Assembly: GCF_900009145.1 (NCBI RefSeq)
Contig: NZ_LN889812.1
Coordinates: 571,357-635,356 of the forward strand
Direction of reading: 5' to 3'
DNA length: 64,000 bases
DNA from: Planktothrix tepida PCC 9214
GTDB lineage: Bacteria > Cyanobacteriota > Cyanobacteriia > Cyanobacteriales > Microcoleaceae
Made by a program: the position numbers and the translations under genes. Under the pieces are notes generated by a model. It was given only the letters and a program-made list of their open reading frames with translations. It was not told the DNA's origin and did not search any database. Shown here in pieces: positions 2,127 through 57,742 of the stretch (position 1 is its first letter; every line of letters begins with the position of its first letter).

Positions 2127-3602
2127 ATGGCAAAAATTAATGGTGTGATGATGCAATATTTCCATTGGTATCTCCCGGCTGATGGAACCTTGTGGGATAA
2201 AACAAAAATTAACGCCCAAGAGTTAGCGGATGCAGGAATTACGGCTTTATGGTTACCCCCGGCTTACAAAGGCGCAAGTGGTGGAATGGATGTGGGATAT
2301 GCCGTTTATGATATTTATGATTTGGGAGAATTTGATCAAAAAGGGTCAATTAGAACGAAATATGGCACTCGTCAAGAATATTTAGATGCGATAAACAGCT
2401 TACATCAAGCAGGAATTGAAGTTTATGCTGATACGGTATTAAATCACAGAATCGGGGCAGATGGAACAGAAGTGGCAAAAGCAACTCCTTTTCCTCAATA
2501 TGATCGGAAAAATCCAAAAGGAGATTTACGAGATATTAAAGCTTATACTATCTTTAACTTTCCAGGTCGCCAAGGAAAATATTCTAAATTTGAGTGGCAT
2601 TGGTGGCATTTTGATGCTGTTGATTATGATGAATTTACCAAAGAATCAGGAACCGTTTATTTATTTGAAGGCAAAATTTTTGATGATTATGTTGCCTTGG
2701 AAAATGGCAATTTTGCTTATCTAATGGGAGCAGATTTAGATTTCCAATATGAAGAAGTCAGAACTGAAATTATCAACTGGGGGAAATGGTATCTCGACAC
2801 AACAGATGTGGATGGATTTCGCTTAGATGCTATTAAACATATTTCCGCTTGGTTTTTCCCAGAATGGTTGGATGCCATGGAAAAATATGCAGGTCGGGAA
2901 CTTTTTACCGTTGGAGAATATTGGGCGCCTGATACTGGCATCTTGAATTGGTATTTAGACACTGTTGGTCAACGAATGTCGGTGTTTGATGTTGCCCTTC
3001 ATTATAATTTTCATTATGCTAGTAAGGCTGGGGGATATTATGATATGCGGACGATTCTGGATGGAACTTTAATTAAAGGAAGTGCTATGAATGCCGTTAC
3101 TTTTGTTGAAAACCATGATTCTCAACCGTTACAAGCCTTAGAATCAGTCGTTGAACCTTGGTTTAAACCCTTAGCTTATGCCATTATTTTATTGCGTCAA
3201 GAGGGTTATCCTTGTATTTTTTATGCCGATTATTACGGTGCAGAATATGAAGATAAAGGACGGGATAGCAATACGTATAAAATTGTTTTACCCTCCCATA
3301 AAGAGTTTATTGATCAGTGTCTTTATGCGCGTCAAAATTTCTGCTATGGCTCTCAATATGACTATTTTGATCACCCCGATATTATTGGTTGGACTCGCTT
3401 AGGAGATGAACAACATCCGAAAGCAATGGCGGTGATTTTAAGTGATGGCCCAGAAGGAATTAAACCAATGGAAGTGGGTAAACCCAACACCAAATTTTAT
3501 GACCTGACGGGGAATATTCAAGCACCCATTGAAACAAATGATTCTGGTTGGGGTGAATTTTCTTGTAAAGGGGGTTCTGTTTCCATTTGGGTTCAGAAGT
3601 AG
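2127..3602 (+). CDS. Cytoplasmic alpha-amylase (GH13)
   Basis: A 491-residue glycoside hydrolase family 13 enzyme hydrolysing internal alpha-1,4 bonds of glycogen or maltodextrins. All four conserved GH13 regions are present: DTVLNH (region I, about residue 102), GFRLDAIKHI with the nucleophile Asp (region II, about 231), FTVGEYW with the acid Glu (region III, about 260) and FVENHDSQ with the transition-state Asp (region IV, about 328). No signal peptide is seen, and length and layout match the intracellular AmyS-type enzymes, so a role in glycogen or maltodextrin turnover inside the cell is inferred. The start ATG follows GAGGGAAC. Neighbours are unrelated to sugar metabolism. Confidence 0.95.
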   Translation: MAKINGVMMQYFHWYLPADGTLWDKTKINAQELADAGITALWLPPAYKGASGGMDVGYAVYDIYDLGEFDQKGSIRTKYGTRQEYLDAINSLHQAGIEVYADTVLNHRIGADGTEVAKATPFPQYDRKNPKGDLRDIKAYTIFNFPGRQGKYSKFEWHWWHFDAVDYDEFTKESGTVYLFEGKIFDDYVALENGNFAYLMGADLDFQYEEVRTEIINWGKWYLDTTDVDGFRLDAIKHISAWFFPEWLDAMEKYAGRELFTVGEYWAPDTGILNWYLDTVGQRMSVFDVALHYNFHYASKAGGYYDMRTILDGTLIKGSAMNAVTFVENHDSQPLQALESVVEPWFKPLAYAIILLRQEGYPCIFYADYYGAEYEDKGRDSNTYKIVLPSHKEFIDQCLYARQNFCYGSQYDYFDHPDIIGWTRLGDEQHPKAMAVILSDGPEGIKPMEVGKPNTKFYDLTGNIQAPIETNDSGWGEFSCKGGSVSIWVQK

Positions 3603-3774
3603 GGTTTTAAATTTCGGATTTTAATCAATTTCTAAGAGTGCGATAGTTTTTCAAACTTGAAAATAAGTTATAATAAATTCTGAACAAGCTGAGAATGTTA
3701 ATATTGATTAGATTTTTTAAGAGTCTTTTCTTGTTCAGAATTTTAACCCTCAAATATTTTGTTAACAAATTACC

Positions 3775-43905: not shown

Positions 43906-45309
43906 TTGACTGAAGCCAATCAATCAATACCCCCAACCTCAACCATCTCTCGTAAAGAGTTACGCGAGTTGGTGCGGACACAACTACAAGTGTTACTGGA
44001 GCTCGGAGACTTAACAGCCGCCAAAAGCATCCTTAAGCCTGTACAACCGGCGGATATCGCCGAAGCCATCGAAGGTTTACCCGAAACCATGCAGGTGATT
44101 GCTTTTCGGTTGTTACCCAAAGATGAGGCGATCGAAGTCTACGAACAGCTTGACTCTAGCGTTCAACAGTCTCTGTGCGAGAAATTCAAGCGCCAAGAAG
44201 TCATCGACATTGTAGATAAAATGTCACCCGATGATCGAGCGCGTTTATTTGAGGAGTTACCCGCCTCCGTCGTGCGGCGAATTGTTGCCGAATTAAGCCC
44301 CACAGAACGTCAATCAACGGCGTTGTTGTTAGGCTATGAAGCGGGAACGGCTGGGCGAATCATGACCCCGGAGTATGTTTCTCTCAAAGAATATTTTACC
44401 GTCAGTCAAAGTTTAGAACGAATCCGCAGTTTAGCCTATGTAACAGAAACGATTTATTCTCTGTATGTTACGGATTCAGATCGGCGGTTATTAGGGATTT
44501 TATCATTGCGGGATTTAGTCACAGCCCAACTGGAACAAACCGTCGGTGAAATTATGAATCAAGATATTGTTTCTGTGCAAACGGACACCGATCAAGAGGA
44601 AGTGGCGGATATTATTCAACGGTACGATTTTTTAGCAATTCCAGTGGTAGATAGCGAACGGCGATTAGTGGGAATTATTACCGTTGATGATGTGTTAGAT
44701 ATTATTCAACAGGAAGCCACAAAAGATATTTATGCTTTGGGGGGGGTGCAAACCGATGGCGATAATTATTTTCAGGCAAATTTGCTAACAATCGCCCGCA
44801 GACGGGTGGTTTGGTTATTAGTTTTACTCTTAACAAATAGTGTAACGGGTTCAATTTTGAAAATGCAACAGGATCTGTTGCATCAGGTGGTGGCACTGTC
44901 GTTTTTTATTCCCTTACTGACGGGAACAGGAGGCAATGTGGGGGCACAATCTTCTACCGTTGTGATTCGGGGGATGAATACCGATGAAATCCGGGCAATG
45001 GGGCCATTACAAGTGATTATGCGCGAGGGATTAGCGGGAGCATTATTAGGTACAATCTTAGGAATTTTAGCTACAATTTGGGCCAATACATTTGTTGTAC
45101 AAGGGAATTTACCCGTTGCTGTGGCGGTGGGGGTTAGTTTAGTCGCGATTTCCATCTTAGCTTCGGTAGCGGGTTCCTCTTTGCCCTTTTTATTCCGTTC
45201 ATTAGGATTAGATCCGGCTTTAATGTCAGCACCGTTTATTACAACGGCTGTTGATGTTTTAGGGGTGTTAATTTATTTTAATTTAGCTCGATTGATTTTG
45301 CAAATTTAG
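43906..45309 (+). CDS. mgtE: Magnesium transporter MgtE
   Basis: A 467-residue inner-membrane Mg2+ channel. Residues about 25-140 are the MgtE N domain, about 145-270 two CBS domains that act as the Mg2+ sensor (DIVSVQTDTDQEEVADIIQ, VGIITVDDVLDIIQQEA), then a linker helix and five membrane segments, with the pore region PLLTGTGGNVGAQSSTVVIRG near residue 345. The TTG at 43906 is the start: AGGAGG lies at 43893-43898, an ideal seven bases before it, and no ATG competes. A weaker gene with its own Shine-Dalgarno follows after 18 bases. Confidence 0.95.
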   Translation: MTEANQSIPPTSTISRKELRELVRTQLQVLLELGDLTAAKSILKPVQPADIAEAIEGLPETMQVIAFRLLPKDEAIEVYEQLDSSVQQSLCEKFKRQEVIDIVDKMSPDDRARLFEELPASVVRRIVAELSPTERQSTALLLGYEAGTAGRIMTPEYVSLKEYFTVSQSLERIRSLAYVTETIYSLYVTDSDRRLLGILSLRDLVTAQLEQTVGEIMNQDIVSVQTDTDQEEVADIIQRYDFLAIPVVDSERRLVGIITVDDVLDIIQQEATKDIYALGGVQTDGDNYFQANLLTIARRRVVWLLVLLLTNSVTGSILKMQQDLLHQVVALSFFIPLLTGTGGNVGAQSSTVVIRGMNTDEIRAMGPLQVIMREGLAGALLGTILGILATIWANTFVVQGNLPVAVAVGVSLVAISILASVAGSSLPFLFRSLGLDPALMSAPFITTAVDVLGVLIYFNLARLILQI

Positions 45310-45327
45310 AGGAGGTGATTATCGGGA

Positions 45328-46050
45328 TTGTTACTTTTAAAGCAGCGTCCACGATTCTCCTTCTCCACCGGAAACCTTTATTTAACTTCACTTGAGATTA
45401 TTAATATGCTGAATCATAAACGATGGCCTGAATTCGTAGAATTAATTTTGATTATTGCTGCAATTATTGGTTCTTTTAGTCTTCTCAACGGACAACCCAT
45501 AACTTATGCAGTGATTCCGGGATCTTTAGCTTTAGGATTGAATTGGCTTAATCGTCAATTATTAGCCCAACAAACTCGGAAAAGTGCTACCAATACAAAA
45601 AGCTTAGTTCAGCAACATCAAGCAGATTTAGATCAATTAATGGATCAATTAAAAAACACAATCAATACTTTAAATATTTCTTCAGGGCTGGCCTTTACTC
45701 CGAATCCTCAATTAGCTCAGGAATTACAATCTTTAATGATCGTGATTCAAAATCTATTAGAACGTCAAAATTTATTAGAAAAAACCTTAACAATGATGCA
45801 ATCTGAGTTAGAAGTGATTGTCCAAACGTTCCAAAAACGGCCTGAATTGGAACAAATCAATAGCTTAACTCATGTTATTGTCGATCTTCAACAATTTATT
45901 AATCAATTACCTCAATGGGGAAATTTACAACAACATCAAATGAATGAACTGCATCAAAAGGTTGAACAATCTCTACAACAACTTTCCGTAGAACTCGCTA
46001 AAATTCCCCAGCAAGTTGAACAGGAAGTTAAGCGACAAGTCAATTCATAA
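45328..46050 (+). CDS. Membrane-anchored coiled-coil protein of unknown function
   Basis: I do not recognise the family. A hydrophobic hairpin near the N-terminus (FVELILIIAAIIGSFSLL, then ITYAVIPGSLALGLNWL) is followed by about 160 residues of Gln/Leu/Glu-rich coiled coil. The predicted arrangement is a short membrane anchor with a long cytosolic rod. The start is probably the TTG at 45328, with AGGAGGTGA at 45310-45318, giving 240 residues; an ATG at 45406 would give 214. Similar anchored coiled coils are common in cyanobacteria without known roles. It overlaps the mgtE operon region and may be co-transcribed with it. Confidence 0.75.
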   Translation: MLLLKQRPRFSFSTGNLYLTSLEIINMLNHKRWPEFVELILIIAAIIGSFSLLNGQPITYAVIPGSLALGLNWLNRQLLAQQTRKSATNTKSLVQQHQADLDQLMDQLKNTINTLNISSGLAFTPNPQLAQELQSLMIVIQNLLERQNLLEKTLTMMQSELEVIVQTFQKRPELEQINSLTHVIVDLQQFINQLPQWGNLQQHQMNELHQKVEQSLQQLSVELAKIPQQVEQEVKRQVNS

Positions 46051-46820: not shown

Positions 46821-46850
46821 TTGACAAATTTAAAAAACAATTGGTATGAT
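46821..46850 (+). promoter_or_regulatory. Consensus sigma-70 promoter for gvpA
   Basis: TTGACA at 46821-46826 and TATGAT at 46845-46850 with an 18-base spacer. The -35 is perfect and the -10 differs at one position, fitting the very high expression of GvpA. Transcription should begin near 46857, giving a leader of roughly 70 bases that ends with an AAAGGT ribosome site shortly before the gvpA ATG. Confidence 0.75.
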
Positions 46851-46928: not shown

Positions 46929-47144
46929 ATGGCTGTCGAAAAAACCAATTCTTCCTCTAGTTTAGCTGAAGTTATTGATCGCATTCTTGACAAAGGGATC
47001 GTTATTGATGCTTGGGCTCGTGTCTCTCTTGTGGGAATTGAACTGTTAGCAATTGAAGCCCGCGTCGTTATCGCTTCTGTTGAAACCTACCTGAAATATG
47101 CTGAAGCTGTTGGTCTGACTCAATCCGCTGCGGTTCCTGCCTAA
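46929..47144 (+). CDS. gvpA: Main gas-vesicle structural protein GvpA
   Basis: The 71-residue hydrophobic protein that forms the ribs of the gas-vesicle wall. The sequence is the highly conserved cyanobacterial Gvp[19 protein letters not shown], then [20 protein letters not shown] and [16 protein letters not shown] single copy is present here; tandem gvpA copies alternating with gvpC are reported in some Planktothrix and Microcystis strains. It is driven by a near-consensus promoter and followed by a strong hairpin before gvpC, which may set the large excess of GvpA over GvpC. Confidence 0.99.
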
Positions 47145-47358: not shown

Positions 47359-47745
47359 ATGACTGCTCTCATGGAAAAATTCCGACAGGAGCGTTTATCA
47401 ATTGCAGAAGAAGTGGCTGAACTCTGCCAAGAGACTCAAGCTTTTCTGTCGGCTACCCAAGTTAAAAGACAACAACAAGCTGAAGAGCAAGCGATTTCCC
47501 TAAGTCAATTTCACAAAAAATTGAAACAAGAAAATCGAGTGTTTTTAACAGCTATCCACAAAGAACGTCTGTCCCAAGCCAAGAAACAAGCGATTTCCCT
47601 AAGTCAATTTCACAAAAAATTGAAACAAGAAAATCGAGTGTTTTTAACAGCTATCCAAAAAGAACGTCTAGCTCAAGCGAAGCAGCAAAAACAAGATTTG
47701 CGCCAATTTCGTAAAGAGTTGTCTATCTATGTTTTTGGAAAATAA
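47359..47745 (+). CDS. gvpC: Short gas-vesicle outer protein GvpC
   Basis: A 128-residue alpha-helical protein that binds the outside of the gas vesicle and strengthens it. It is built of 33-residue repeats; the best two contain [20 protein letters not shown] and are encoded by near-identical 99-bp units, with degenerate copies before and after. This is much shorter than the usual five-repeat cyanobacterial GvpC and resembles the about 16-kDa variant described in Planktothrix, which is linked to narrow vesicles of high critical pressure. That assignment rests on length and repeat number. It lies 214 bases after gvpA, separated by a stem-loop, and is followed by another hairpin. Confidence 0.96.
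47488..47685 (+). repeat. 99-bp tandem duplication within gvpC
   Basis: Two 99-bp units start at 47488 and 47587. The first 71 bases are identical, and the remaining 28 differ at a handful of positions. The near-identity shows recent duplication or gene conversion of one 33-residue repeat. Confidence 0.95.
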
Positions 47746-48144: not shown

Positions 48145-49290
48145 ATGACAGTTGCTGAACCTCAAACAAGAAGATCTGTCCTCCGCGTTCGCCCTGGTCA
48201 ATTTGTTGTTACACCTTCAATTCATCAAATTACAACCCGGGCTTTACGTTACCTGCACTCTGGTTTTTCCATTCATCTGCGTGGCCCAGCCGGAACCGGA
48301 AAAACCACACTAGCCATGCACCTAGCCAATTGTTTAGCTAGACCCGTAATGCTGATTTTTGGAGATGATGACTTCACCAGTTCCGATTTAATTGGCAGTC
48401 AGTCAGGTTATACCCACAAAAAACTGATGGATAACTATATCCACAGCGTTCTCAAAGTTGAGGACGAACTCAAACATAATTGGGTGGATTCTCGACTGAC
48501 GATGGCCTGTCGAGAAGGATTTACCTTAGTTTATGATGAATTTAACCGTTCTCGACCCGAAGTCAACAACGTTTTACTCTCCGCCTTAGAAGAAAAAATT
48601 CTGACCCTGCCGCCCACTAGCAATCAACCCGATTACCTGCAAGTCCATTCTCAGTTTCGGGCAATTTTTACCTCTAACCCGGAAGAATATTGTGGGGTTC
48701 ATGCTACCCAAGATGCCTTAATGGATCGGTTGGTAACCATTAATATGCCAGAACCGGATGAACTAACTCAGACTGAAATTCTCGCCCAAAAAACAGGTAT
48801 TCGTCGAGAAGATGCGTTATTTATTGTCAACCTCGTCAAAACTTTCCGTCTGAAAACTACGGCTGAAAAAACATCAGGTTTGCGCTCTTGTTTAATGATT
48901 GCCAAAGTCTGCGCCGAACACGAGATTGTTGCCACCCCCAATCACGCAGATTTCCGCGATATTTGTGCAGATGTTCTCTTATCACGGACTAATTTACCCA
49001 TCGATCAATCGACAACTATTTTATGGGAAATTCTCAACGAGAATTCAACAGAATCCTTACCTGTCGTAGAGGAAACGGATAGTCCAAATGCCAGTGCGTT
49101 ACCTCCTGATGCTTTAAAGGAACATGAACAGAAAATTTATCATTATTTGCAGCAAACCCACAAAGCCAGCTTTCATGAAATTTACAAGACTTTAAACCTC
49201 AAGCAAAATCAAGCGGAAAAAGCTATTCGTTCTTTACTGCAAAAGAAATTGTTGAAGCAACAAGACCAGTTTTATATTCTTTTTGAGTGA
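48145..49290 (+). CDS. gvpN: Gas-vesicle AAA+ ATPase GvpN
   Basis: A 381-residue MoxR-type AAA+ ATPase needed for vesicles to grow to full size. Walker A is [14 protein letters not shown] near residue 46 and Walker B is [15 protein letters not shown] near 128; arginine-finger and sensor regions follow ([19 protein letters not shown]). The core ends near 295. About 60 further residues ([39 protein letters not shown]) look like a winged-helix domain not required by the minimal family. Its stop overlaps the gvpJ GTG start (GTGA), so translation is coupled. Confidence 0.97.
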
Positions 49291-49745
49291 AACCAACCGT
49301 GACTTCCTCTACTTTTGCTCCCCCCATCAAAAGCCACTCAAATAGCTCCATAACAACGGCTACTCAAGGTTCTAGTTTAGCGGATATCCTTGAACGAGTT
49401 TTAGATAAAGGAATTGTGATTGCGGGCGATATTTCTGTGGCGATCGCTTCTACTGAACTTCTACATATCCGCATTCGTCTATTAATTGCCTCTGTTGATA
49501 AAGCACGGGAGATTGGAATTAATTGGTGGGAAAGTGACCCCTATCTTAATAGTCAATCTCAAGCTTTATTAACAGAAAATAAAGAACTTTCACAGCGACT
49601 CCAGAGCTTAGAAGCTGAACTTAAAGCCTTAAAATCCTTAACCCAATCGAGTGCAATAGAAAGCCATGATACCAGTCCGAACGATGAAGAACATTCCGAA
49701 AAGCCAAACAATTCTTTGCTTAAGTCCAAACAAGTTAGGGGGTAG
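49287..49745 (+). CDS. gvpJ: Gas-vesicle protein GvpJ
   Basis: A 152-residue minor vesicle protein. Residues about 28-78 are homologous to GvpA ([39 protein letters not shown]), followed by [10 protein letters not shown], a coiled coil (about 95-125) and a charged tail. GvpJ-type proteins are thought to sit at vesicle tips or nucleate assembly. The GTG start overlaps the gvpN stop by four bases. gvpK begins 90 bases later. Confidence 0.95.
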
Positions 49746-49835: not shown

Positions 49836-50312
49836 ATGGCACTTGTTTGCACACCTTGTGATACTGCCGATGAGATCTTACCGACTTCTGAAACAACTCA
49901 TAGTAAAGGGGGTTTAGCACCTTTACTGTTAACGGTGGTAGAACTGGTACGTCAACTGTTAGAAGCTCAAATCATTCGCCGCATGGAAGAAGGCAGAATT
50001 CTCAGCGAGGCTGATTTAGATAGAGCCGCAGAAAGTTTGCAAAAATTACAAGAGCAAATTCTCCATTTGTGTGCAATTTTTGAAGTCGATCCGAAAGATT
50101 TGAATATCAATCTTGGAGAATTTGGTACGCTTTTACCCTCCCCAGGAAGCTATTACCCTGGAGAATATAGCGCCAGTCCTTCTATATTAGAATTGGTTGA
50201 CCGACTTTTAAATACTGGAGTTGTTGTAGAAGGAAATGTCGATTTAGGTTTAGCCAAACTTGATTTAATTCATCTAAAGCTTCGTTTAGTGCTAACTTCT
50301 CAGCCCCTTTAA
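49836..50312 (+). CDS. gvpK: Gas-vesicle protein GvpK
   Basis: A 158-residue accessory protein required for vesicle formation in systems studied. Conserved segments are GLAPLLLTVVELVRQLLEAQ, RRMEEGRILSEADLDRAAESL and NLGEFGTLLP, and the C-terminal 45 residues (SILELVDRLLNTGVVVEGNV, then DLGLAKLDLIHLKLRLVL) again resemble GvpA. It is thus a fusion of a GvpK core with a GvpA-like module, as usual in cyanobacteria. gvpF starts 15 bases downstream with GGAGATGATTT as ribosome site. Confidence 0.96.
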   Translation: MALVCTPCDTADEILPTSETTHSKGGLAPLLLTVVELVRQLLEAQIIRRMEEGRILSEADLDRAAESLQKLQEQILHLCAIFEVDPKDLNINLGEFGTLLPSPGSYYPGEYSASPSILELVDRLLNTGVVVEGNVDLGLAKLDLIHLKLRLVLTSQPL

Positions 50313-50327
50313 TTTTGGAGATGATTT

Positions 50328-50873
50328 ATGGCTACGGGTCTTTATTTATATGGAATATTTGCCGATCAGATTCCTGACGAAATGGTTTGGGAAGGGATTG
50401 ATCATGAACTCGTTCACAGTGAAGTCATTGAAGGATTTAGTTTTCTCTACTCTGTTGTTCATAAAGAGAAATATTTGGCTTCCCGTCGCTATCTAATTTG
50501 TCATGAAAAAGTCCTAGAAAACGTAATGGAAGCAGGGTTCCGTACTTTGCTACCATTGCGTTTTGGATTGGTTGTTAAAACCTGGGAAACGGTGATAGAA
50601 CAATTGATTATCCCTTATCAGAATCAACTCAAAGATTTATTTACCAAATTGTCAGGAAAACGAGAAGTTAGCATTAAGATTTTTTGGGATAGCTCCTCTG
50701 AATTAAAAAGAATTCTGGAGTGCGATCAGGAGTTAAAAAAACAACGGGATGATATGCTCGGCAAAACGTTAACGATGGAAGAAATTATCTATATTGGTCA
50801 AAGGATTGAAAACAGCTTATACCAATGTAAACAAGAAATTGTTCAGGTCTTTCGAGATCAATTAAATCATTAG
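50328..50873 (+). pseudogene. gvpF: gvpF 5' part, interrupted by an insertion sequence
   Basis: The first 181 codons of the accessory assembly protein GvpF (GLYLYGIFADQIP at the start, GFRTLLPLRFGLVVK in the middle, IYIGQRIENSLYQCKQEI near the end). The reading stops at a TAG created by the first bases of the inserted element, just after FRDQLNH. The missing 3' part lies at 52018-52208. Joining 50328-50871 to 52018-52208 gives an uninterrupted 244-residue protein that continues FRDQLNHCAQEVVENEP, the normal family length. The truncated product lacks the C-terminal domain and is probably inactive. GvpF-type proteins are needed early in vesicle assembly in the organisms tested. Confidence 0.95.
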
Positions 50874-52014
50874 ACATCTCCAAAATAGAAAAAAGGAGGG
50901 GTAAAAAGATGATAAAATTAAATTTTACCCCGGATTAGAGATGAGTAAATTAAGAGACTATCTGGACAAGAATCCCCAGCAAGCAAAAAGGCTATTAGGG
51001 ATGGAATATGAACAGATGATAGAACTCATTCAAGCTGCGGAGTTATTAGAAGAAGAAAAACGACAGGAAAAAGAAAAAACTAAAATCAGGTTGATTAAAG
51101 CAGGTGGGGGTCGTCGGCAGAAATTATCTGTGGAGGAACAAATCTTACTGACTCTAATTTATCTGCATCAAATGCCGACATTTCAAATGTTAGGGTTACA
51201 GTTTGAAGTCAGTGAATCAACAGCGAATGATATTTTCCATAACTGGATAAAAATCTTGAGAGAATTACTACCAGCGAGTTTGCTAGAGCAAGTAAAAAAA
51301 AACGAGAGTGATTGGGAGTGGGTAGAAAAAATTCTGGTGGAATTTGAGTTAGTAGTAGATAGCTATGAACAGCCCAGGGAAAGACCAACAGACAATGAAG
51401 AGCAGAAAAAATATTACTCAGGAAAGAAAAAGACACATACCTTTAAAAATCAAGTCATTGTCATGCCAAATGGAAAAGAAATAGTGGATGTAGCTGTGGG
51501 TTATACCGGAGCAACAAGTGATCTGAAATTGTGGAGAGAAAGAAGCCAGGAATTGGGGAATAATCAAAAATACAGAGGGGATAAAGCTTATGTAGGAGAA
51601 ACAGCAATTAATACACCGTATAAGAAACCGAGGAATCAAGAGATGTCGGCGGAAAAGCGAGAAGAAAATCGGTTAAAAGCCCAACAAAGGATTGTAGTTG
51701 AACATTTAATAAGACTGATAAAAATTTATCGAGTTGCTTCAGAAAGATTTCGGTTAAAGAGGCAAAATTATGAAGCAGTAATCTTGACAGTATGTGGATT
51801 AATAAGATGGCGAATAGGAGCGATTGTATTACCATCTAAGAATTGCCCAGAATTCTTTTGAGAAATAATTGTATATCAGAGATAAAATTCATTAGTTATT
51901 ATTAATGTGACTGAAAAAGCCTATGAATCCGTTACTTTTGGAGAAGCCGTCACAGGAGTGCTAGAGATTCCAAAAGTAGCGATAGAGGGCATTTGGAGAT
52001 TTTCGGAGATGTCT
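50872..52014 (+). mobile_element. IS5-family (ISL2-like) insertion sequence, 1143 bp
   Basis: The ends are inverted repeats: AGACATCTCCAAAAT at the left and ATTTTCGGAGATGTCT at the right, matching apart from one inserted base. ATT flanks both sides (50869-50871 and 52015-52017), a 3-bp target duplication of the ANT type expected for the ISL2 group. One complete transposase gene occupies most of the element. The 5' leader (50898-50931) folds as GGGGTAAAA/TTTTACCCC. About 150 bases follow the transposase before the right end, longer than in many relatives. Intact ends and gene suggest recent movement. Confidence 0.93.
50941..51861 (+). CDS. IS5-family transposase
   Basis: A 306-residue DDE transposase of the DDE_Tnp_4 type. 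An N-terminal helix-turn-helix-like region includes KLSVEEQILLTLIYLHQMPT and FEVSESTANDIFHNW. The catalytic acids are Asp about 140 (VVDSYEQPRERP), Asp about 214 (YRGDKAYVGE) and Glu about 254 (RIVVEHLIRLIKIYR). All are intact, so it is probably active. Its own ATG has no strong ribosome site; a nine-codon leader frame (50909-50938, with AGGAGGGG before it) ends two bases upstream, suggesting coupled translation and a limit on transposase amount. Confidence 0.95.
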   Translation: MSKLRDYLDKNPQQAKRLLGMEYEQMIELIQAAELLEEEKRQEKEKTKIRLIKAGGGRRQKLSVEEQILLTLIYLHQMPTFQMLGLQFEVSESTANDIFHNWIKILRELLPASLLEQVKKNESDWEWVEKILVEFELVVDSYEQPRERPTDNEEQKKYYSGKKKTHTFKNQVIVMPNGKEIVDVAVGYTGATSDLKLWRERSQELGNNQKYRGDKAYVGETAINTPYKKPRNQEMSAEKREENRLKAQQRIVVEHLIRLIKIYRVASERFRLKRQNYEAVILTVCGLIRWRIGAIVLPSKNCPEFF

Positions 52015-52017
52015 ATT

Positions 52018-52208
52018 GTGCTCAAGAGGTTGTAGAAAACGAGCCGATGATGGATGATATGATTTACAATACGGCTTATTTAATTCCTTGGGATCAAGAA
52101 TCTGAATTTAGTCAGAAAGTTGAAGCGATCGATCAACAATTTGGCGATCGCTTGCGAATTCGCTACAACAATTTAACAGCACCTTATACCTTTGCTCAAC
52201 TCATGTAA
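52018..52208 (+). pseudogene. gvpF: gvpF 3' part, separated by the insertion sequence
   Basis: The last 63 codons of gvpF, reading AQEVVENEPMMDDMIYNTAY and LIPWDQESEFSQKVEAIDQQ to the end APYTFAQLM. These are the conserved C-terminal segments of the GvpF/L family. It has no start of its own at the junction, although an internal ATG at 52047 could allow a small fragment to be made. gvpG begins 14 bases later with GTAAGGAGAG as ribosome site. Confidence 0.93.
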
Positions 52209-52222
52209 GGAGAGTATCAGTT

Positions 52223-52465
52223 ATGTTTCTTGATCTTTTATGCTTTCCTGTTACCGGGCCCCTGAATGGCTTAATCTGGATCGGAGAGAAAATTGAAGAG
52301 CGTGCAAATACGGAATATGATGACACTGAAAATTTGCACAAATTATTATTATCATTACAACTAGCTTATGATATGGGCAACATTTCTGAGGAAGAATTTG
52401 AAATTCAGGAAGAAGAACTTTTATTAAAAATTCAAGCTTTAGAAGAAGAGTCTGTAGAGAACTAG
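52223..52465 (+). CDS. gvpG: Gas-vesicle protein GvpG
   Basis: An 80-residue accessory protein: LCFPVTGPLNGLIWIGEKI near the start and an acidic helical tail (NISEEEFEIQEEELLLKIQA), matching GvpG in length and pattern. GvpG is needed in small amounts for assembly and interacts with GvpF/L-type proteins in other organisms. It lies 14 bases after the gvpF 3' part, so expression now depends on read-through of the insertion sequence or a promoter within it. A hairpin lies between it and the convergent gvpV. Confidence 0.95.
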   Translation: MFLDLLCFPVTGPLNGLIWIGEKIEERANTEYDDTENLHKLLLSLQLAYDMGNISEEEFEIQEEELLLKIQALEEESVEN

Positions 52466-52667: not shown

Positions 52668-52985
52668 TTAATATTCCAGGTAAAAGGCTTGGAAATTAGA
52701 AGACTGAGCAATCGGTTTAGAAGGATGAAGCATTTTAGGTATAGTGGGATTAGCTTGGCGTAAATCTTGAATAGTCTGTTCTGTACTATCGATTTGATGA
52801 TTCAGAACCGTGAGACGATTTTTTAACTGTTGAAGTCGCTGTTCCATCAATTGTAATTCTTTTTGGATGCGCTGTTTTTCAGTAATCAACTTATACAATT
52901 CAAGTTGCTGAGATGCTTCAGATTTATTCCGAGGCATAGTGCTGATTTTAGGTTTGATTGGGCCTTTAACACGATTACTGGTCAT
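52668..52985 (-). CDS. gvpV: Gas-vesicle protein GvpV
   Basis: A 105-residue protein with a basic N-terminus (RVKGPIKPKISTMPRNKSEA) and a long coiled coil (LELYKLITEKQRIQKELQLM, then EQRLQQLKNRLTVLNHQIDS). The MPR-KSEAS-LELYKL segment is typical of cyanobacterial GvpV. Its exact role in assembly is unknown. It is encoded opposite to all other gvp genes here, so it has its own promoter in the 142-bp gap shared with the next gene. Confidence 0.85.
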   Translation of the reverse strand: MTSNRVKGPIKPKISTMPRNKSEASQQLELYKLITEKQRIQKELQLMEQRLQQLKNRLTVLNHQIDSTEQTIQDLRQANPTIPKMLHPSKPIAQSSNFQAFYLEY

Positions 52986-53127: not shown

Positions 53128-53811
53128 ATGAAATTATATAATTTATATGCTTACGCTTTTTTAAAAACTCCAAAACAGATCTTGAAATTACCTGTTGGAA
53201 TTGCCAGCCCAGTTTTACTGATGGCTTCAGGAAAAATCTCGGCTCTAGTAGAACCAGATGTCTGTTTAGATGCCTTACAAAAGGATAATGAACGCTTAAT
53301 TCAAGCGGTTTTATCCCATGATCGTGTCATCTGCGAATTGTTTCAGCAAACGACAGTTTTACCCTTACGTTTTGGCACGTCTTTTTTAGAGGGAGACAAT
53401 TTACTTGATCATCTCGGTTCTAATAGCGAAGAATACCAAGAAAAGCTCCAACAACTCCAAGGAAAAGGGGAATATATTTTAAAATGTATTCCTCGTAAGT
53501 TAGAGGAACCTGTTCTAGGTTCAGAGATGACGGGAAGACAATATTTTTTAGTTAAAAAACAGCACTATCAAACCCAACAAAACTTTTATATCCTGCAAGC
53601 AACAGAATGGCAAAAGGTCGTTCATTTAGTTACCGATCAGTATCAATCAACGATTATCAATGCTTGTCCAGGAGCAGAATCACGAATTTATCTTTTAGTG
53701 CCTTGTCAAGATGAACCTTTCCTAACTAATCATTTCTTGAATTGGCAGAAAGTTTGTCCTCGTTGGGAATTGCAATTAGGACAAGTTTCTCCACCCTATC
53801 ACTTTATTTAA
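53128..53811 (+). CDS. gvpW: Second GvpF/GvpL-family protein (gvpW position)
   Basis: A 227-residue protein of the GvpF/L family: LYNLYAYAFLKTPKQIL at the start, TTVLPLRFGTSFLEGDNLLD in the middle (compare LLPLRFGLVV in GvpF) and a C-terminal WELQLGQVSPPYHFI that matches the PYxF ending of the family. By order (after gvpG and gvpV) it corresponds to gvpW of Microcystis; the name is inferred. It might partly cover for the broken gvpF, but the two are only distantly alike. It begins a separate plus-strand unit: the ArsA-type ATPase follows after 12 bases. Confidence 0.82.
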   Translation: MKLYNLYAYAFLKTPKQILKLPVGIASPVLLMASGKISALVEPDVCLDALQKDNERLIQAVLSHDRVICELFQQTTVLPLRFGTSFLEGDNLLDHLGSNSEEYQEKLQQLQGKGEYILKCIPRKLEEPVLGSEMTGRQYFLVKKQHYQTQQNFYILQATEWQKVVHLVTDQYQSTIINACPGAESRIYLLVPCQDEPFLTNHFLNWQKVCPRWELQLGQVSPPYHFI

Positions 53812-53823
53812 CTGAGTTTATAT

Positions 53824-55725
53824 ATGACTAACTTTCACCCTGTAAACAACATTCTTAACCCTTATGACTCTCGCCATTTAGTCATGTTTAGTGGCAAAGG
53901 AGGAGTGGGAAAAACCACCCTTTCCTGTGGATTTGCTCGTCGTTGGGCTAAATTATTTCCTGATGAACAAATCCTATTAATCTCAACAGATCCAGCCCAT
54001 TCTTTAGGAGATATCTTACAAACACAAGTCTTAGATCAAGCATTACCTTTAAAAGACTTACCGAACTTAAAGGTTAGAGCGTTAGATGCGGGAAAATTAC
54101 TATTAGAATTTAAAGAAAAATATGGAAAATTTTTAGAACTCTTAGTTGAACGAGGCAGCTTTGTTGAAGGAGAAGATTTAACCCCTGTTTGGGATTTAGA
54201 CTGGCCCGGTTTAGATGAAATTATGGGGTTATTAGAAATTCAACGGTTACTCACTGAAAAAATAGTTGATCGAATTGTTGTTGATATGGCTCCTTCCGGT
54301 CATACCTTAAATTTATTAGGAATTAAAGATTTTTTAGAGATTATTTTAAATTCTTTGGAATTATTTCAAGAAAAACATCGAGTCATCTCCCAAACCTTTG
54401 TAAAAACTTACAATGCGGATGAAGTGGATGACTTTTTGGTCAAAATGAAATCGGAATTAACCGAAGGAAAACAACTATTGCAAGATGCCAGTTTCACTGT
54501 TTGTTTAGTTGTGGCCATTGCAGAACCGATGAGTTTATTAGAAACCGAACGATTACTCAAGAGTTTGCAGCACTTAAATATTCCCTGCGGTAGTTTATTT
54601 ATCAATCGAATTTTATCCCCATCAAACCTAAACTTAGATCGCTATAGCGAACAACAAGAACTTCTGAGTAAATTCCTTAAACTTCCGGGTCAAGATGCCA
54701 TTTTTACCCTTCCCCAACAATCAACAGAACCTCTAGGGGGTGAAGCTTTAGATCTGATCATGAGCCAAATTCAAACCCTTGAAACTGTAGAATTAGTTCC
54801 CCCACCTCTTATCCAATGGCCAGAAAAAATTCTCCCTAGTTTTAGCGATTTTATTGCTGAAAAACGTCAATTAATTATCATTGGAGGAAAGGGAGGTGTA
54901 GGTAAAACAACTGTTGCTGCTGCCCTAGGTTGGGGATTAGCCCATCGTTATCCTGAGAAAAATATTCGGATTATTTCTATTGATCCAGCCCATTCTTTAG
55001 GAGATGCCTTTGGGGAAAAATTAGGACATCAACCCACACAATTAACCGCCAATTTAAGCGGTCAAGAAGTCGATGCTGATATTGTTTTAGAGCAATTTCG
55101 CAATGATTATTTGTGGGAACTTGCAGAAATGATTAGCGGTGAAGGCAAGGAAGACGGATCGATAAAACTGGCCTATACTCCTGAGGCTTGGCGACAAATT
55201 GTAGCTCAATCCTTACCGGGAATTGATGAAATGCTCTCGTTAGTAACCGTCATGGATTTATTAGACCAGAAACAACAAGACTTAATTATTTTAGATACGG
55301 CTCCTACCGGTCATCTTCTGCGTTTTTTAGAAATGCCAACCGCTTTAGGGGAGTGGTTAGCTTGGATTTTTAAGCTGTGGATGAAGTATCAAAATGTATT
55401 AGGGCGTTTAGATTTAATGGGGCGATTGCGAACCTTAAGGCAACAAGTGATGCAAGCCCAGAAAAAACTAAAAAATCCCCAACATACAGAATTTATTGGG
55501 ATTCTGCAAGCCCAAGATGCCATTGTTGCCGAACAAGTTCGATTAACAGCATCTTTGAAAAAAATGGGAGTCTATCAACGCTATGTCGTGCAGAACCGTT
55601 ATCACGCGCATGAGGAAATTGATCGGGATTTATTCCCGGATCAAACTCTGATTCGCCTACCCAGTTTACCTCGGTCAGTGGAACCTCTAGCCCGAGTTAA
55701 AGGGGCTGCCGATCTTCTGTTTTAA
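53824..55725 (+). CDS. Tandem ArsA/Get3-family ATPase
   Basis: A 633-residue fusion of two deviant-Walker P-loop ATPase domains. Domain 1 has GKGGVGKTTLSCGF (about residue 24), STDPAHSLGD and VDMAPSGHTLNLL; domain 2 has GGKGGVGKTTVAAAL (about 357), SIDPAHSLGD and LDTAPTGHLLRFLEMP. The duplicated layout resembles bacterial ArsA, but no arsenite pump gene is nearby, and the family also includes Get3, which carries hydrophobic tail-anchored proteins. It lies 12 bases after the GvpF/L-family gene and upstream of a Cdc48-type ATPase. A role in handling the very hydrophobic gas-vesicle proteins is an attractive inference, not shown. Confidence 0.88.
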   Translation: MTNFHPVNNILNPYDSRHLVMFSGKGGVGKTTLSCGFARRWAKLFPDEQILLISTDPAHSLGDILQTQVLDQALPLKDLPNLKVRALDAGKLLLEFKEKYGKFLELLVERGSFVEGEDLTPVWDLDWPGLDEIMGLLEIQRLLTEKIVDRIVVDMAPSGHTLNLLGIKDFLEIILNSLELFQEKHRVISQTFVKTYNADEVDDFLVKMKSELTEGKQLLQDASFTVCLVVAIAEPMSLLETERLLKSLQHLNIPCGSLFINRILSPSNLNLDRYSEQQELLSKFLKLPGQDAIFTLPQQSTEPLGGEALDLIMSQIQTLETVELVPPPLIQWPEKILPSFSDFIAEKRQLIIIGGKGGVGKTTVAAALGWGLAHRYPEKNIRIISIDPAHSLGDAFGEKLGHQPTQLTANLSGQEVDADIVLEQFRNDYLWELAEMISGEGKEDGSIKLAYTPEAWRQIVAQSLPGIDEMLSLVTVMDLLDQKQQDLIILDTAPTGHLLRFLEMPTALGEWLAWIFKLWMKYQNVLGRLDLMGRLRTLRQQVMQAQKKLKNPQHTEFIGILQAQDAIVAEQVRLTASLKKMGVYQRYVVQNRYHAHEEIDRDLFPDQTLIRLPSLPRSVEPLARVKGAADLLF

Positions 55726-55894: not shown

Positions 55895-57742
55895 ATGACA
55901 GAGTTATTCAAAGGTTTTGAGCAATTAGTCGAACTGGCGAAAACCTTAGAAGAAAAACTTGAAAAAGGAGAAATTAAAACTGAAGTGCAGTTTAGTTCTC
56001 GTCCCTTGAGTAATATTCCCCGTTCTGGTGGGATTCCCCGTCCAGGCGGCATTCCCCGCACGAGCAGTTCTGGTGGGGGTGATTTTGAGGTCAATCGCAG
56101 TCGCTCATCTTCCCCCTCAGATTCAGGATTTGAAGACACTATGACACCCCCAGAAGAAGCTACCACCCCTTCCCTTAAAGACGTTGGCGGATTGACAGAA
56201 GTTCTCAAAGAACTCAAAGAACTGATTGCCATTCCCCTAAAACGCCCCGACTTATTAGCGAAATTAGGACTCGAACCCACTCGTGGGGTGCTGTTGGTTG
56301 GCCCCCCAGGAACAGGCAAAACCCTGACCGCCCGTGCCCTGGCGGAAGAACTCGGTGTTAACTATATTGCCTTAGTCGGGCCAGAGGTGATGAGTAAATA
56401 TTATGGGGAAGCCGAACAACGACTGCGAGGAATTTTTGAGAAAGCCGCAAAAAATGCGCCTTGTATCGTTTTTATTGACGAAATTGATAGCATGGCTCCT
56501 GATCGCAGCAAAGTGGAAGGGGAAGTGGAAAAACGACTCGTTGCCCAACTGCTGAGTTTAATGGATGGCTTTTCCCAAGCTCAAGGGGTGATTGTTCTTG
56601 CCGCCACGAACCGCCCCGACCATCTTGATCCCGCCTTACGCCGCCCCGGACGGTTTGACCGAGAAGTGCAGTTTCGGGTTCCTGACCGCAATGGACGTTT
56701 AGAAATTCTCCAGATTCTCACCCGTTCCATGCCCTTAGATGAATCGGTTTCCTTAGCTTTGATTGCGGATAATGCCGTGGGATTTGTGGGGTCAGATTTA
56801 AAAGCAGTTTGCCAGAAAGCAGCCTATAGTGCTTTGCGACGTCAGGTTCCTACGATTGAATCCAAAATTCCAGAAATCATGACAGTCAGCCAGTCCGACT
56901 TTTTGCAAGCCCTCAAAGAAGTTAAACCTGCGGTGTTGCGGTCTGTGGAAGTGGAATCTCCCCATATCGCTTGGGACAATATTGGCGGACTTGAACAAAT
57001 TAAACAAACCCTACAGGAATCTGTGGAAGGAGCATTACTCCATCCCCAATTATATATGCAAACCAAAGCCCAAGCACCCAAAGGCATTTTGCTTTGGGGG
57101 CCACCGGGAACGGGGAAAACCTTATTGGCGAAAGCCGTTGCATCTCAGGCGCGAGCGAATTTTATTAGTATTAATGGCCCGGAACTTCTGAGTAAATGGG
57201 TGGGAGCCAGTGAACAAGCGGTACGGGAGTTATTTGCCAAAGCTCGTCAAGCTGCGCCTTGTGTAGTGTTTATTGATGAAATTGATACCTTAGCTCCAGC
57301 AAGAGGCCGTTATAGCGGGGATTCTGGGGTAAGTGACCGAGTTGTGGGACAAATTTTGACCGAGTTAGATGGATTGCAAACGGGGGCGACGATTTTGGTG
57401 ATTGGGGCTACAAACCGCCCGGATGCGTTAGACCCAGCTTTATTACGGGCGGGACGGTTAGATTTACAGTTAAAAGTGGATTTACCGAGTGCTTCTAGTC
57501 GTTTAGCAATTTTACAAGTCCATAACGATGAACGTCCTTTACAGGATGTGGATTTAGGTTATTGGGCCGAAGCAACGGAAGGCTGGAATGGGGCGGATTT
57601 AGCGTTATTATGTAACCAAGCCGCACTGGTAGCGATTCGTCGTTATCGGCATCAGGGAATGACTGACCCGACTGAGATTCGGATTACAACGGGTGATTTC
57701 AATGCTGCTTATCAAGTGTTAGTTGAACAGCGTGCAACTTAA
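55895..57742 (+). CDS. Tandem Cdc48/VAT-type AAA ATPase
   Basis: A 615-residue protein with two AAA domains. D1 is about 90-335 ([47 protein letters not shown]). D2 is about 360-610 ([47 protein letters not shown]). Walker A and B, sensor 1 and arginine fingers are intact, so both rings should hydrolyse ATP. The usual Cdc48 N domain is absent: the first 30 residues form an acidic/basic helix ([20 protein letters not shown]) followed by a Pro/Gly/Ser/Arg-rich linker (about 40-90). It starts 169 bases after the ArsA-type gene on the same strand and ends at a strong terminator, so it is plausibly part of the gas-vesicle set as an unfoldase or remodeller. Confidence 0.92.

Follow-up and report, generated by a model that had tools for sequence, protein, structure and literature searches.

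An IS5-type insertion in the gvpF gene of an accessory gas-vesicle cluster of Planktothrix tepida PCC 9214

The interrupted cluster

The stretch of DNA analysed here, 64,000 nucleotides from Planktothrix tepida PCC 9214 and called the window in the following, carries gas-vesicle genes in the order gvpA-C-N-J-K-F-G-V-W, with an ArsA-like and an AAA ATPase gene behind them (Table 1). Family models matched at the positions of A, C, N, J/A-type, K, F, G and W, and the V position was assigned by gene order and 37% similarity alone. As judged from the gene content of the genome, this is a second, accessory gas-vesicle cluster besides the standard loci, and its genes are therefore marked with a 2. 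Promoter-like sites were counted 24 times in the region, as compared to 17.2 ± 4.6 times in shuffled sequences. On the + strand no terminator-like site was found between 46500 and 53200, so that read-through past the insertion would be possible.

Table 1 Features of the accessory gvp cluster and of the element inserted in it (positions in the window).
Feature	Positions	Strand	Evidence
Promoter-like site before gvpA2	46821..46850	+	11/12 consensus positions; weak evidence
gvpA2	46929..47144	+	PF00741, NF006874 over cut-off
gvpC2, 33-residue repeats	47359..47745	+	PF01304, TIGR02641 over cut-off
gvpN2	48145..49290	+	TIGR02640 402 bits, over cut-off
gvpJ2	49287..49745	+	PF00741 58 bits; 72% to standard gvpJ
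gvpK2	49836..50312	+	PF05121 101.4 bits
gvpF2 5' part, residues 1-181, then junction TAG	50328..50871	+	PF06386; 98% to G007 GvpF
Target-site copy ATT, left	50869..50871		Sequence
IS5-type insertion element, 1143 bp	50872..52014	+	10 full-length copies in own genome
Left terminal inverted repeat, 13/14	50872..50885		End comparison
Transposase gene, 306 residues, 921 bp with stop	50941..51861	+	Pfam DDE_Tnp_4 107.6 bits, HTH_Tnp_4 66.9 bits
Right terminal inverted repeat, 13/14	52001..52014		End comparison
Target-site copy ATT, right	52015..52017		Sequence
gvpF2 3' part, to residue 244 and stop	52018..52208	+	PF06386 positions 186-244
gvpG2	52223..52465	+	PF05120 85.9 bits
gvpV2-like, named from its place in the gene order; without a match to any gvpV family model	52668..52985	-	37% to gene in same position beside standard gvpG; sole such gene in genome
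gvpW2-like (GvpL/GvpF family)	53128..53811	+	PF06386 94.1 bits
Two-domain ArsA-like ATPase (ArsA2)	53824..55725	+	TIGR00345 327.1 bits, over cut-off
CDC48/PAN-like AAA ATPase (AAA2)	55895..57742	+	NF003069 516.4 bits, over cut-off; CDC48 model 667.4, below its cut-off

The window sequence places the IS5-type element exactly inside gvpF2 and between two copies of ATT. The upstream frame comprises 181 codons and ends with the residues FRDQLNH, after which a TAG is created at the junction, and the downstream part is open through to the normal stop. In-silico removal of the element together with one ATT brings CAT before TGT and yields a gvpF2 of 244 codons plus stop. Both parts are matched by PF06386 (positions 1-185 with 125.5 bits, 186-244 with 54 bits; cut-off 23.6). 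The model of the cyanobacterial GvpF equivalog, NF052351, asks for at least 350 as one protein; the 181-residue part alone scored 241.1 and stayed below, as expected for a truncated GvpF2.

For comparison, the two flanks were joined to a query of 240 bases (2 × 120), which aligned without a gap in two further Planktothrix genomes, in G007 with 238/240 and in G009 with 195/237 identical positions. At the syntenic place G007, which carries the window-type cluster at about 95-97% nucleotide identity, encodes an unbroken GvpF2 of 244 residues that is 98% identical to the window copy over residues 1-181. The earlier note on this DNA, made from the sequence alone, had claimed an exact IS5-type insertion at 50872-52014 with a duplicated ATT, whose removal restores a 244-codon frame, and had proposed an alignment of gvpF with other Planktothrix genomes. 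The element ends, the junctions and the empty sites bear out the first claim, the codon count and the G007 gene the second, and the alignment found the gene uninterrupted in both genomes. Its further statement that the 3' half is free of decay also holds, codons 183-244 differing from G007 by 1 synonymous and 0 non-synonymous changes; in codons 1-181 there are 6 synonymous and 4 non-synonymous differences. The sequence of gvpF2 thus appears without signs of decay, and so few changes resolve the age of the insertion poorly. Since the flanks and the transposase are intact and gvpF2 is unbroken in G007, the insertion would most simply postdate the split of PCC 9214 (G000) from G007. The label "reversible-looking", which the note had also used, fits the geometry of the insertion, and nothing beyond this geometry supports a reversal. 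A likeness of the gvpF2 start region to the IS end (19 nt, 84%) was dismissed as meaningless, since 2 kb contain 30 such inverted pairs.

The inserted element and its copies

The element begins with AGACATCTCC and ends with GGAGATGTCT; as inverted repeats, the two ends match at 13 of the first 14 and at 13 of the first 20 positions. Its transposase is a single open frame, for which DDE_Tnp_4 and HTH_Tnp_4 both scored above the Pfam cut-off and the best NCBIfam model was that of IS5 (NF033581, 79.8 bits at a cut-off of 140); the IS5 models of NCBIfam all stayed under their cut-offs. In some subgroups of the IS5 family the target duplication is 3 bp long; the element has both the terminal inverted repeats and a 3-bp target duplication.

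The own genome contains 18 matches to the element, ten of which are full length (1143 bp, same ends). Because the same unit with the same ends recurs ten times, the insertion is not a product of chance. The other full copies differ from the window copy at 0-2 positions, a near-identity which may be overstated by a draft that was gap-closed from mate-pair Illumina reads. The window copy is identical to C56:122722-123864, and these two form the closest pair among the ten, since they share a T at position 1079 in place of the G of the other eight. Equal triplets flank eight of the ten, all of the form A-N-T (ATT four times, AAT three times, ACT once). The remaining two, L004 and L006 (G000:C46), are flanked by ATT/AAT and AAT/ACT, perhaps owing to recombination between copies or to misjoining. 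Furthermore, a 3-bp A-N-T duplication was present at all three copies inspected in G003, G002 and G008.

Among the eight matches that are not full length, five (L011, L013-L016) stop no more than 6 bases from an N and are likely unresolved copies, and the other three (L012, L017, L018) are fragments of 81-91% identity; short non-autonomous derivatives were therefore rejected. In the window copy the left end (50872-50945) can pair with the start region of the transposase gene (CATCTC with GAGATG; z -2.45, 3 of 200 shuffles being as stable). The pairing bases also occur in L040 and L042, the two relatives for which the left end could be read in that orientation. Plausibly, this pairing would act as a shield against read-through from the gvp genes.

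Full-length relatives of 93-94% identity were found in G002, G003 and G008, and some match occurred in 29 of the 59 genomes searched, the own included. A copy on plasmid p1 of P. pseudagardhii No.713, annotated as IS5/IS1182 family, is 99.7% identical over 95% of the length. In its length, its family and the strains concerned the window element resembles the Planktothrix IS element group 5 ("IS5, transposase, P. agardhii"), which is listed with a 921-bp transposase gene and a high copy number in lineage 3, namely 14-19 full-length copies in the two strains of that lineage (PMC9366434, Table 3). The IS-element section and other parts of that paper name no IS insertion into a gvp gene. The element is an ordinary, genus-wide one, probably of IS5 type.

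Standard loci and second cluster across the genus

Ten Planktothrix genomes (G000 to G009) were compared, of which G006 is 73% complete and G009 is a MAG. Standard-type gvpF is present in all ten and is 48-51% identical to the window gvpF, and the window type occurs only in G000, G007 and G009. In G000 the standard genes are open throughout: gvpA, a gvpC of 343 residues, gvpN and gvpJ lie on contig C26 (L073), and gvpK, a gvpF of 245 residues and gvpG on contig C57 (L059). C26 carries a gvpW-like gene besides. Read from its second ATG, the standard GvpC has 39.5 kDa, the size reported for P. tepida PCC 9214 and two other strains in a study which names one GvpC size per strain and states that the gvp organisation could not be analysed (PMC5259702). 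GvpC with the classical 33-residue repeats was detected by PF01304 only in G000, G007 and G009; the standard GvpC escapes this model in all ten genomes, so that the search says nothing on its absence.

In a GvpF tree of 25 rows the window GvpF falls together with those of G007 and G009 and with the Microcystis aeruginosa GvpF of PDB entry 4QSG (support 100/99), apart from all eight standard Planktothrix rows; the tree omits four of 17 loci (L089, L091-L093), the G002 and G006 copies of standard type and the second G001 copy. The Microcystis protein is 76% identical to the G007 GvpF2, whereas the standard GvpF1 forms a separate branch and is 52% identical both to 4QSG and to GvpF2. By this tree the two GvpF types are of different descent. 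A scan of the genome contigs with the gvpF half gave 16 stretches, none of which was confirmed, and a plasmid search for GvpF2 gave seven records, the best being Nostoc sphaeroides with 63.8%. Among the literature matches listed, no description of a second gvp cluster in Planktothrix was found, and in its consulted parts PMC9366434 mentions duplicated gas vesicle proteins in general terms only.

Some differences between the genomes were observed as well. Tandem gvpK-gvpF repeats are present in G001 (L067) and G002 (L069), and several gvpA copies in the same two genomes (10 and 8 matches to PF00741 as compared to 3 in G003-G006 and G008). Standard gvpA is absent in G009 between gvpC and a response-regulator gene (L075 near 3743, G009:C29; alignment gap of about 0.44 kb relative to G000), although near-identical gvpA copies could be collapsed in a MAG.

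The upstream neighbours of the second cluster (43906-46050) match at least in part in all ten genomes. In six of the seven genomes without the cluster, the 14-kb stretches beside this block gave no match to second-cluster proteins. In G004 a 109-bp match of 75% to the ArsA2 gene directly follows the block (L106:4281-4389), which may be what remains of a second cluster since lost.

For gvpV, the ArsA-like gene and the AAA gene the ten genomes fall cleanly into two groups. The seven genomes without the second cluster have a standard gvpV-like gene, a full standard ArsA-like gene (64-66% to that of the window) and a standard-type AAA gene (64-73%; in two pieces in G006). The three genomes with the cluster have only the second-cluster copy of gvpV and, at E <= 1e-60, only the second-cluster type of AAA. 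In G000 each of the three, gvpV, ArsA-like and AAA, is represented solely by a gene in or beside the broken cluster. At the orthologous place, between syntenic flanks, a remnant of about 82 codons of the standard ArsA-like gene is left in G000 (L125:3473-3754) and G007 (L126:3551-3827), and two short pieces are left in G009 (L124, about 3500-3740). Because the deletion junctions of G009 differ from those of G000 and G007, the scars look independent between the lineages, later erosion of one old lesion being the alternative. The branch that separates G009 from the other seven standard rows of the GvpF tree has a support of 84/90 only, so that the number of independent losses, read from this tree and not from a species tree, is uncertain. 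The loss of gvpV in G009 is local (about 0.4 kb relative to G008, 1.3 kb relative to G004), and in G000 and G007 the synteny with other genomes ends after the standard gvpG. The standard gvpV, ArsA-like and AAA genes are spread over three sites in G001, with about 75 kb between the closest two.

We tentatively propose, just short of calling it probable, that one lineage of Planktothrix possesses two vesicle systems which differ in descent and have some of their assembly factors in common. The V, ArsA-like and AAA proteins of the second cluster would have replaced the lost standard ones, ArsA apparently having been lost more than once, and most core genes, gvpF included, would have been kept paired. 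The same pattern could be a coincidence, as only three genomes carry the second cluster and two of these are close kin; we favour the reading that the second-cluster V, ArsA and AAA serve both systems. This pattern of shared parts merits more attention than the insertion. If it is as proposed, the genomes have already separated the genes that can be exchanged (V, ArsA-like, AAA) from those that each system retains for itself (C, N, J, K, F, G and, for the most part, A), which bears on the open role of GvpF and the extra ATPases and on vesicles built from mixed parts. That ArsA homologues can neighbour gvp genes was reported earlier (PMC2963123). A further AAA protein, 47-48% identical to AAA2 over residues 357-590 (E <= 1e-60), occurs in G001-G005 and G008 (e.g. 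G008:C6:214893-215594) and in none of the three second-cluster genomes, which may be a threshold effect.

Consequences of the break

The break removes the last 63 residues of GvpF2, after residue 181. In the GvpF alignment nearly invariant positions make up 35 of the 62 in 183-244 compared to 75 of the 182 before them. In the structure of the Anabaena protein the two domains are held to each other by a C-terminal tail lodged between them (PMC7204071), and the Halobacterium GvpF appears to bind GvpA (PMC9501494). With this strongly conserved quarter of the protein gone, the truncated GvpF2 is very probably inactive.

We consider it likely that gvpF of the accessory cluster was hit by an IS5-type insertion, that GvpF2 was very probably lost thereby and that the standard vesicles were most likely kept. 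The genus-wide element would have transposed into an A-N-T target in gvpF2 and duplicated the ATT, most simply after the split from G007, and translation of GvpF2 would end after residue 181. The cell would keep vesicles of the standard type, and the second type would either be lost or be served by GvpF1. The two of ten IS copies without matching triplets speak against this explanation. The earlier note had expected gas vesicles to be reduced or abolished. The same genome, however, carries intact gvpA-C-N-J (C26) and gvpK-F-G (C57) with a full GvpF, and since the standard loci thus have their own gvpF, vesicle loss is not the default expectation. As to the polarity on gvpG that the note had considered, transcription may read through the site, no terminator-like site having been found on the + strand there. 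It is the duplicated system that corrects a likely wrong prediction of buoyancy loss, the IS insertion itself being ordinary. Among the literature matches listed, no vesicle phenotype of PCC 9214 was found.

That the second system had already become dispensable, e.g. in culture, and that the insertion was a neutral loss without visible effect is a serious possibility, yet one we would not call probable. The second system is absent from seven of the ten genus genomes, and gvp mutants by IS insertion or truncation are reported to arise in cultured Microcystis and Anabaena (PMC3542288, PMC11448079). Against dispensability stand the dN/dS values between G000 and G007, which range, at small counts, from 0 to 0.31 in nine comparisons of genes or gene parts (gvpA2, C2, N2, K2, the two parts of F2, G2, V2 and W2; gvpJ2 and AAA2 left out). 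With so few protein changes the second system would have been under constraint until recently.

Less readily, the insertion could have abolished or strongly reduced the vesicles, either because the second cluster is the one mainly expressed or through polarity on gvpV2, ArsA2 and AAA2, which have no standard copies. Polarity could extend to the standard system too, which has no other genes of these three kinds to draw on. Halobacterium salinarum with its p-vac and c-vac clusters resembles G000 in having two gvp clusters per genome, one of them hit by an IS (ISH), and its strain R1 is vesicle-negative from one IS (PMC4390858); rescue by the standard system is thus not certain. In G000, in contrast, some accessory genes are single-copy. 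In Anabaena sp. 90 truncation of the single gene gvpG accompanied the loss of buoyancy (PMC3542288). Nevertheless, we consider vesicle loss unlikely with respect to the intact standard gvpA, C, N, J, K, F and G, the gvpW-like gene and the lack of a terminator-like site on the + strand of the region. GvpV and GvpW have also been called not essential (PMC9501494), but a gvpV mutant of Serratia made only small bicones (PMC4982088).

Placement of the element by gap closing is very improbable, for both flanks hold ATT and continue one gene that is unbroken at the syntenic place in G007 and G009, and the window contains no N, even though the short-read draft of PCC 9214 was built with Velvet and GapCloser from mate-pair Illumina reads (PMC5259702) and five partial IS copies end at or close to N; misassembly was therefore rejected as the source of the junctions.

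Under the preferred explanation, an insertion in the accessory cluster with standard vesicles most likely kept, the fate of the second type would depend on GvpF1, which is about 50% identical to GvpF2 and may or may not replace it. In Serratia three GvpF variants were called essential (PMC4982088), so that exchange between GvpF types is not assured. Provided that the two systems do share parts, the interrupted gvpF2 would be a natural knock-out which tests whether a GvpF works in its own system alone or can be exchanged.

The earlier note had also pointed to gas-vesicle mutants caused by insertion elements in cultured Microcystis, and these are indeed described (PMC3542288, PMC11448079, both citing Mlouka 2004). 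There, as in the window, the host is a bloom-forming cyanobacterium and one of its gvp genes carries an IS. In Microcystis, however, it is the IS1-like ISMae3 in gvpV (PMC11448079), whereas in PCC 9214 an IS5-type element interrupts gvpF of a second cluster, with the standard set intact elsewhere in the genome.
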